DNA of 64,000 nucleotides from Candidatus Tectimicrobiota bacterium (GTDB taxonomy: Bacteria > JACPUC01), in NCBI GenBank assembly GCA_016192455.1, contig JACPUC010000014.1, positions 56,845-120,844 of the forward strand, read 5' to 3'. The notes under the pieces were generated by a model. The model saw nothing but the letters and a program-made list of their open reading frames with translations, was not told the origin of the DNA and searched no databases. Made by a program: the position numbers and the translations under genes. Position 1 is the stretch's first letter. Each line of letters starts with the position of its first letter. This document shows, piece by piece, positions 54,717-64,000 of the stretch.

Positions 54717-55157
54717 CTACGCTTCCTGAACTTGGCCGCCAGCGGCGCGAATCTTTTCCACCGCGGTCTTGCTGAAACGGTGGGCCTGCACGATGAGGGC
54801 CTTGCTGAGCTCTCCGTCACCGAGGATCTTGACCGCCAGACCTCTGCCGCGGATGAGCCGGCGTTCGCCGAGGAGCTCCGGGGTCACCGCGGTGTTCGCC
54901 GCAAAGACGTCGAGGTCGCCGACGTTCACGATCTCGTAGCGTTTCGTAAAGATGTTCGTAAACCCCCGCTTTGGCAAGCGCCGTTGCAGGGGCATCTGCC
55001 CACCCTCGAACCAGGGCGGCAGGGAGCCTCCCGAACGTGCTTTCTGCCCCTTGTGACCGCGACCTGAGGTTTTGCCCAGGCCACTCCCCGGTCCGCGTCC
55101 GACCCGCTTGATGCTCTGCCGGGACCCCGGGGCGGGGCGCAGTTCATGCAGCTTCAT
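54717..55157 (-). CDS. rplO: 50S ribosomal protein L15
   Basis: 146 residues. '[20 protein letters not shown]' and the Gly/Arg-rich '[20 protein letters not shown]' (about 24-43) are family features. ATG 55157 overlaps the rpmD stop by four bases (ATGA). Confidence 0.98.
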
Positions 55158-55372
55158 GGATGCCGCTCTCCTTGCTCAGCCGCGTTCTCGGTCACCAGGG
55201 TGCAGCGCACCAGGTGGGGGACCTTGTTGATCATGCCACGCACCGCCCGGCTGTCTTCCCGACGCACGGTGTGGTGCAGCCGGCGCAGCCCCAAGCCCCG
55301 CAGCACGAGCTTCAGCTTCGTTGGCGAGCCGATGCCGCTCTTCACGAGGGTGATGTCGATGTAGCGCGCCAT
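55154..55372 (-). CDS. rpmD: 50S ribosomal protein L30
   Basis: 72 residues, slightly longer than E. coli (59). '[20 protein letters not shown]' with '[10 protein letters not shown]' is the L30 core; the extra residues form a Glu-rich C-terminal tail. It overlaps rplO by four bases. Confidence 0.96.
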
Positions 55373-61457: not shown

Positions 61458-62282
61458 CTAGACCTTGCGGCGCCGAATGATAAGCCGATCCGAGAGCTTG
61501 GCGCGGCGCGTCTTGTACCCCTTCGTCGGCACGCCCCACGGGGTCACCGGGTGGCGCCCGCCGGAGGTCTTCCCCTCGCCGCCGCCGTGCGGATGATCGA
61601 CGGGATTCATGGCCACCCCGCGCACCCGCGGCATGCGGCCCATCCAGCGGCTGCGTCCCGCCTTGCCGATGGTGATGTTCTCGTGGTCGGCGTTCCCCAC
61701 CTTGCCGATGGTGGCCCGACAGCTCACCGGCACCTGCCGCACTTCGCCCGACTGCAGTTTCAGCACGGCGTACTTGCCCTCTTTCGCCATGAGCTGGGCG
61801 CTCGTGCCGGCGCTGCGCATCAACTGGCCGCCGCGCCCCTTGGAGAGTTCGATGTTGTGGACGAGCTCGCCGAGAGGAATCTCCGCCAGGTCAAGGGCAT
61901 TGCCGCTGCGAATCTCCGACCCCGTGCCGGAGGTGAGGATGGTCCCCACCGCCAGGCCCTCCGGCCAGAGGATGTAGCGCTTCTCTCCATCCGCGTAGTG
62001 GAGGAGCGCCAAGTAGGCGGAGCGGTTCGGGTCGTACTCGATGGCCGCCACCTTGGCCGGCACGCCGTCCTTGTTGCGCTTGAAATCCACCACGCGGTAG
62101 CGCCGCTTGTGCCCGCCGCCGCGCCAACGGCTGGTGATGCGGCCAGCGTTGTTGCGCCCCCCGGTCTTATGGTACGGACGCAGGAGGGATTTCTCCGGGG
62201 TGCGTTTCGTCAGCTCCTCGAAGGTCGCCGCCGTCTGGAAGCGGCGCCCTGGCGAGGTTGGACGGTAGTGCTTGAGTGCCAT
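61458..62282 (-). CDS. rplB: 50S ribosomal protein L2
   Basis: 274 residues. '[20 protein letters not shown]' opens, '[20 protein letters not shown]' lies mid-protein, and '[20 protein letters not shown]' holds the conserved His linked to peptidyl-transferase function. CAGGATGCACC precedes the ATG. Confidence 0.98.
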
Positions 62283-62345: not shown

Positions 62346-62636
62346 CTACACCCCTTGGAAGAACTCGATGCGGTCGCCCGGCTTCAGTTTCACGATGGCT
62401 TTCTTCCAATCCGGCCGGCGCCCCTGCCGCCGCCCCTGCCGCTTCATCTTGCCGCGCAGGTTCATGGTGGCCACCTCGAGCACCGACACCTTGAAGAGTG
62501 TCTGCACGGCCTGGCGGATTTCCGGCTTGGTGGCGCGGCGATCGACGACGAAGGCCACGGTGTTGCTCGCCTCCGTGCCGGCGGAGGTCTTCTCGGTCAC
62601 CACGGGGCGCTTCAACACGTCGTAGAGACTGATCAT
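62346..62636 (-). CDS. rplW: 50S ribosomal protein L23
   Basis: 96 residues. '[20 protein letters not shown]' and '[20 protein letters not shown]' with KMKRQGRR are hallmarks. It docks trigger factor and SRP at the tunnel exit. ATG 62636 overlaps the rplD stop by four bases. Confidence 0.98.
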
Positions 62637-63256
62637 GGCTTCAGCACCTCGTGGACGCGCGCCAGGGCCGCGCGGCTGCAGATCACGGTCTCGTAATCCA
62701 TCAGGTCGTAGGCGTTCAAGCCTTGCACCGGCAGCGTCTTGACGTGCTGGAGGTTGCGCACTCCGAGGCGCAGGTTCGGTTGCTCCTCGGCAACGAGGAA
62801 GAGGGCCTTGGCGGCGGCGCCGAGCCGCTGCAGCAGTTCCACCGCCAAGCGTGTCTTCGGCGCGCTGATCTCCACCTCATCGAGAACGACGAGGTTGCCG
62901 CTCCGGGCCTTCAGCGTCAGGGCCTGCCGCAGGGCGGCGCGGCGCACCTTGCGCGGCACGCGGTAGGCGTAGCTGCGGGGCTTCGGCCCGAAGACGATGC
63001 CGCCGCCGCGCCAGAGCGGCGAGCTGCGTCGGCCGGCGCGGGCGCGGCCGGTGCCTTTCTGGCGCCACGGCTTGCGCCGGCTGGCCCGCACCTCGGAACG
63101 CCCCAGGGTGCTGGAGGTGCCGCGCCGGCGGTTCGCAAGCTGCATGACGACCACGTCGTGGAGGACGTGCGGCCGCACCTCCACGTTGAAGATCTCGTCA
63201 TGAAGCTCGGCGCTCCCGACCTCTTCGTTCTGTTGATTCCGGACGCTGAGCTGCAT
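62633..63256 (-). CDS. rplD: 50S ribosomal protein L4
   Basis: 207 residues, normal length. '[20 protein letters not shown]' with '[20 protein letters not shown]' is the extended loop that reaches the exit tunnel. In E. coli L4 represses its own S10 operon. GAGAGTCGACG precedes ATG 63256. It should be preceded by rplC, but only 175 bp separate it from rpsJ. Confidence 0.98.
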
Positions 63257-63431
63257 CGTCGACTCTCGCCACTTCGGGCGGCGCCGAGGAACTCCCTCTC
63301 GGCCCCCGCGCTCCTACGTTCCGCTTCGTCCCAGAGCCTCCGGCGCGCGGGGGACTCCGCCTGCCCGCCTCCCGGGCGGAACCCTCGGCCATCCCCAACG
63401 CCGCCATCTCCCGGCGCGGCTCTTCCCAGCG
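63257..63431. other. expected site of rplC (L3), gene absent
   Basis: In nearly all bacteria rplC lies between rpsJ and rplD and is about 620 bp. Here the interval is 175 bp. The minus-strand reading in three frames shows no L3 motif (for example the start MxGxIGxKxGMT or the C-terminal VPGxxGG). No terminator or repeat is obvious. Confidence 0.7.
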
Positions 63432-63743
<312 letters not shown>

Positions 63744-63840
63744 GGTCTGGCGCGTCCCCACCTGGCTGCAAACTACTTGGGAGAGCTGGATGCGATGCGG
63801 CGCGGCGCGGTCCTGGGCGGCGGCAGCGGCCCTGCCTCGC

Positions 63841-64000
63841 CTAGGCGAGGATGTCACTTATCACCCCGGCCCCCACCGTCCGCCCCCCCTCGCGGATCGC
63901 AAACCGCAGCTCCTTCTCCATGGCGATCGGCATGATCAGCTCCACCTCCACCCGCACGTTGTCCCCCGGCATCACCATCTCCGTCCCCTCCGGCAGCTTC
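63841..64000 (-). CDS. tuf: elongation factor Tu, C-terminal end (5' part outside window)
   Basis: The last 52 residues of EF-Tu, ending GVISDILA. '[20 protein letters not shown]' and '[15 protein letters not shown]' are the domain 3 hallmarks. EF-Tu carries aminoacyl-tRNA to the ribosome. It lies 97 bp before rpsJ, the usual order. The rest is outside the window. Confidence 0.97.

Follow-up and report, generated by a model that had tools for sequence, protein, structure and literature searches.

The gene order of the S10-spc-alpha ribosomal protein cluster is regarded as almost invariant and can be used for checking assemblies and annotation. One of the genes with a place in this order is rplC, and its product, ribosomal protein L3, is an early-binding protein of 50S assembly. 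Departures from the cluster have been described for another of its members. The gene rpsD (S4) stands as an orphan outside the alpha operon in, for example, the Alphaproteobacteria, and its position there has been tied to the horizontal replacement of a zinc form of the protein by a zinc-free form (PMC3087516). For displaced rplC we found no description in the open-access papers searched, the older papers on S10 gene order lying outside that search. The case reported below belongs to this known kind, that of ribosomal protein genes which have departed from the S10-spc-alpha cluster.

The DNA under study is a stretch of 64,000 nucleotides (the window) on contig C10 of genome G000, a draft assembly in 31 contigs (4.46 Mb, 88% complete, 2.3% contamination). 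The sole 16S rRNA match of this genome is partial and lies on a small contig (C31:57-715). The part of the window that concerns us holds these features:

63841-64000, minus strand: 3' end of tuf, an open ORF and the upstream neighbour of rpsJ, cut by the contig end
63432-63743, minus strand: rpsJ (ribosomal protein S10), matched to Ribosomal_S10 (PF00338, 1.2e-37), the upstream border of the empty site
63257-63431, minus strand: the rpsJ-rplD spacer of 175 bp, the usual slot of rplC, without L3 remnant
62633-63256, minus strand: rplD (ribosomal protein L4), matched to Ribosomal_L4 (PF00573, 1.4e-71), the downstream border of the empty site
62346-62636, minus strand: rplW (L23) from the ORF list, followed by rplB and the remaining S10-spc-alpha cluster in standard order

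An earlier note, made from the letters of the window, had claimed that only 175 bp lie between rpsJ and rplD, that the other genes of the cluster keep their standard order, and that no L3 reading is visible in the window; all three observations hold. Both genes that border the canonical slot match their families and are complete, no S10 gene besides rpsJ was found in the genome, and L4 has one match. The standard order of the rest can be read from the ORF list, L30 included (55154-55372), and the canonical relatives keep the rplW-rplB cluster order as well, as seen by tblastn. When the genome's own L3 was used as a tblastn query, no significant match was obtained in the 64 kb of the window and none in the gap. 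The best match is a stretch of 29 amino acids inside rplB (61830-61916, minus strand), which weakly resembles residues 92-120 of L3 with 45% identity and an E value of 0.019; this resemblance possibly reflects chance or a likeness at the level of the fold. The RNA of the 175-bp spacer folds no better than its shuffles (z 0.29), no promoter- or terminator-like sites were found in 62400-64000, and there were no Rfam matches in 40000-64000. The end of the window is also the end of contig C10 (120,844 bp) and falls inside tuf, which many bacteria carry in more than one copy; the contig probably stops here at an assembly break at a repeat.

The same note had reasoned that L3 must sit elsewhere unless the assembly had lost it, and it proposed a search of the rest of the genome with the Ribosomal_L3 profile and a comparison of the rpsJ-rplD gap in relatives. 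The profile search settled the first point in favor of relocation: it returned exactly one match in the whole genome (C3:128184-128435), which is enclosed by an intact ORF of 221 amino acids at C3:127884-128546. Against TIGR03625, the NCBIfam model L3_bact, the protein scores 250.5 bits, with an equivalog cut-off of 142.9, and aligns over its full length (residues 4-207 against positions 1-202 of the 202 in the profile). We expect a normal L3 as the product; its family match suggests nothing else. The gene stands outside the ribosomal protein clusters. On its two sides are genes for a DsrE-family protein and a GHL10 protein, both non-ribosomal and both on the minus strand, opposite to L3, and the wider surroundings are metabolic (gamma-glutamyltranspeptidase, aminotransferase, glutamine synthetase and CN hydrolase, together with hydrolases). 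No transposase or integrase was found among the proteins checked. It is very likely that contig C3 belongs to this genome, because the tetranucleotide profile of the 20 kb around L3 correlates with those of pieces of the window at 0.980-0.984, close to the 0.983-0.987 among the window pieces themselves. We consider it highly probable that rplC has left the S10 operon and now stands by itself, intact and in one copy, at another site of the genome.

Since there is no co-directional gene directly upstream of the L3 gene on C3, it should need a promoter of its own. The ORF begins with ATG and has a GGAG 7 bases upstream of it. A candidate -35/-10 pair picked by eye, TTGCTT-17-TATATT, lies 91 bp upstream of the ATG; 61 of 500 shuffles do no worse, so the promoter is inferred only from the orientation of the genes. 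A standard promoter scan found none at this gene, and its leader folds no better than shuffles.

The arrangement is not confined to this genome. We located S10, L3 and L4 together in about 140 lineages, represented by one genome each and scored by reading tables; none of the comparison genomes is nearer to G000 than the same domain. In 12 of these lineages (G000, G028, G031, G033, G040, G081, G116, G123, G126, G133, G134 and G142), rpsJ lies next to rplD and L3 is at another site. The description of the slot as the near-universal place of rplC in the earlier note therefore needs to be softened, as about 1 in 12 of the sampled lineages has L3 elsewhere. The lineage with the L3 and S10 most similar to those of G000 is G031 (S10 91%, L3 58% identical), and it too is without rplC in this place: rpsJ and rplD abut with almost no spacer, which means that the spacer is not conserved, and L3 is found on another contig. 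In the surroundings of this second orphan L3 (L003:2-802, contig C288) there are an AAA ATPase that carries a CDC48 N-terminal domain, uncommon in bacteria, and a glutaredoxin-pyridine nucleotide reductase fusion.

In some phyla the displacement extends through all scorable genomes. We searched 38 genomes of the phylum of G028, and L3 is displaced in every one that allowed S10, L3 and L4 all to be located, including the single-contig genome G073; judged by 9-Mb genomes and an OMP_myx_plus gene that adjoins L3, the phylum is probably Myxococcota. The phyla of G033 and G040 likewise have L3 displaced in every scorable genome. In the phylum of G130, both scorable members, G130 included, are canonical. 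A search for L3 in named genomes yielded only distant CPR matches. Shared neighboring genes were looked for among the displaced L3 loci of different lineages and none were found, so the gene either moved to different places or had its surroundings reshuffled later.

The history of the displacement was followed on two trees, one built from 19 operon-encoded ribosomal proteins in 60 genomes (2477 columns) and one of L3 itself, which has 211 usable columns and leaves most deep branches unsupported. On the operon-protein tree, the canonical or displaced state changes 11 times, at least six of these changes being forced by well-supported branches. On the L3 tree, with its different set of rows, there are six changes. 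G000 and G031 are sisters on the L3 tree (support 98/97), and on the 19 operon proteins a search constrained to keep them together ended in a better tree than the unconstrained one (p-AU 0.904). As the two group on both the operon proteins and L3, their common ancestor probably already had a displaced rplC, the displacement then predating their split.

Where the displaced gene came from is a separate question from whether it moved. The stand-alone rplC could have been acquired by horizontal transfer, with the native copy in the operon lost afterwards, a reading which concerns the origin of the relocation and not its reality. It has the precedent of S4 outside the alpha operon (PMC3087516), and many displaced L3 proteins do gather on the L3 trees, as shared donors would have them do, which shows in the lower number of changes there than on the operon-protein tree, given that the row sets differ. 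We nevertheless judge it rather unlikely. The L3 of G000 pairs with that of G031 just as their operon proteins do, and with the 211 columns and poor resolution of the L3 tree, neither placing the L3 of G000 and G031 with the canonical relatives G122 and G130 (p-AU 0.246) nor placing that of G134 with G168, as expected from ordinary descent (p-AU 0.316), is rejected.

One may also turn the direction around and take the displaced state as ancestral for a large group, in which G122, G130 and other canonical members would have regained rplC in place. There is some clustering of displaced lineages on the L3 tree and on the operon-protein tree, where 34 of 500 shuffles are as low. This idea, however, requires rplC to have returned several times to exactly the slot between rpsJ and rplD, which is less likely than repeated exit; pairs well supported on the operon-protein tree differ in state (G134/G168 with support 100, G142/G127 and G123/G026 with 99 each), and no common destination of the loci was found. 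We regard it as distinctly improbable. As for an artefact, be it a loss of some 600 bp at 63257-63431 or a contaminant origin of the L3 contig, the draft is 88% complete and a contig end is close by, but we give this next to no credence: rpsJ and rplD are intact with an L3-free spacer between them, the composition of C3 matches, a contaminant L3 would also need to have been displaced from its own operon, and the deletion put forward in the earlier note is very unlikely because the same adjacency recurs in independently assembled genomes, namely in G031, across 12 of the roughly 140 lineages and in all scorable genomes of the G028 phylum, the single-contig one among them.

What is seen, then, is an empty site, a single intact copy of L3 with non-ribosomal neighbors of opposite orientation, and the same arrangement in G031. 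The most likely course is that a copy of rplC was placed outside the operon by translocation or duplication and that the operon copy was lost, L3 now forming a transcription unit by itself. In the ancestor shared by G000 and G031, the outside copy would have gained a promoter and a ribosome-binding site; the copy in the operon would then have been deleted, rejoining rpsJ to rplD and leaving the remaining copy to be transcribed independently. No relative was seen in the intermediate state with both copies. Judged from its sequence, the protein would still be ordinary ribosomal protein L3, and the change would concern only its location and the coupling of its transcription to that of the S10 operon.

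The relocation of L3 is real and recurrent, and its novelty is modest. The breadth of the exit should be visible in the annotated genomes of the lineages concerned. It is worth pointing out that an absent rplC need not mean an assembly error, as is shown by this genome and by the finding of the same state in about 12 of the 140 lineages. With at least six changes in the sample, one could go further and propose, quite tentatively and with the odds against it, that the exit of rplC is a recurrent evolutionary route in Bacteria, taken perhaps since L3, as a protein that binds early in 50S assembly, gains from transcriptional control separate from that of L4 and the S10 operon; the recurrence makes it testable whether L3 repeatedly escapes operon control for a functional reason.

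Like the orphan rpsD, the rplC of G000 encodes a universal and essential ribosomal protein, has vacated its slot in the S10-spc-alpha cluster and is present once, at another site of the genome. Unlike orphan rpsD, with its swap of a zinc form for a zinc-free form by horizontal transfer, vertical descent of the L3 of G000 is not rejected. With the phylum of G028 and the other displaced lineages it has in common the adjacent rpsJ and rplD and the one rplC elsewhere; it differs from them in that their destinations have no neighboring genes common to G000, and the L3 of G028 is 45% identical. In five other lineages (G004, G085, G098, G151 and G160), the S10 operon is interrupted at this end too, in another way: there it is rpsJ that is detached and found elsewhere, while rplC stays together with rplD.
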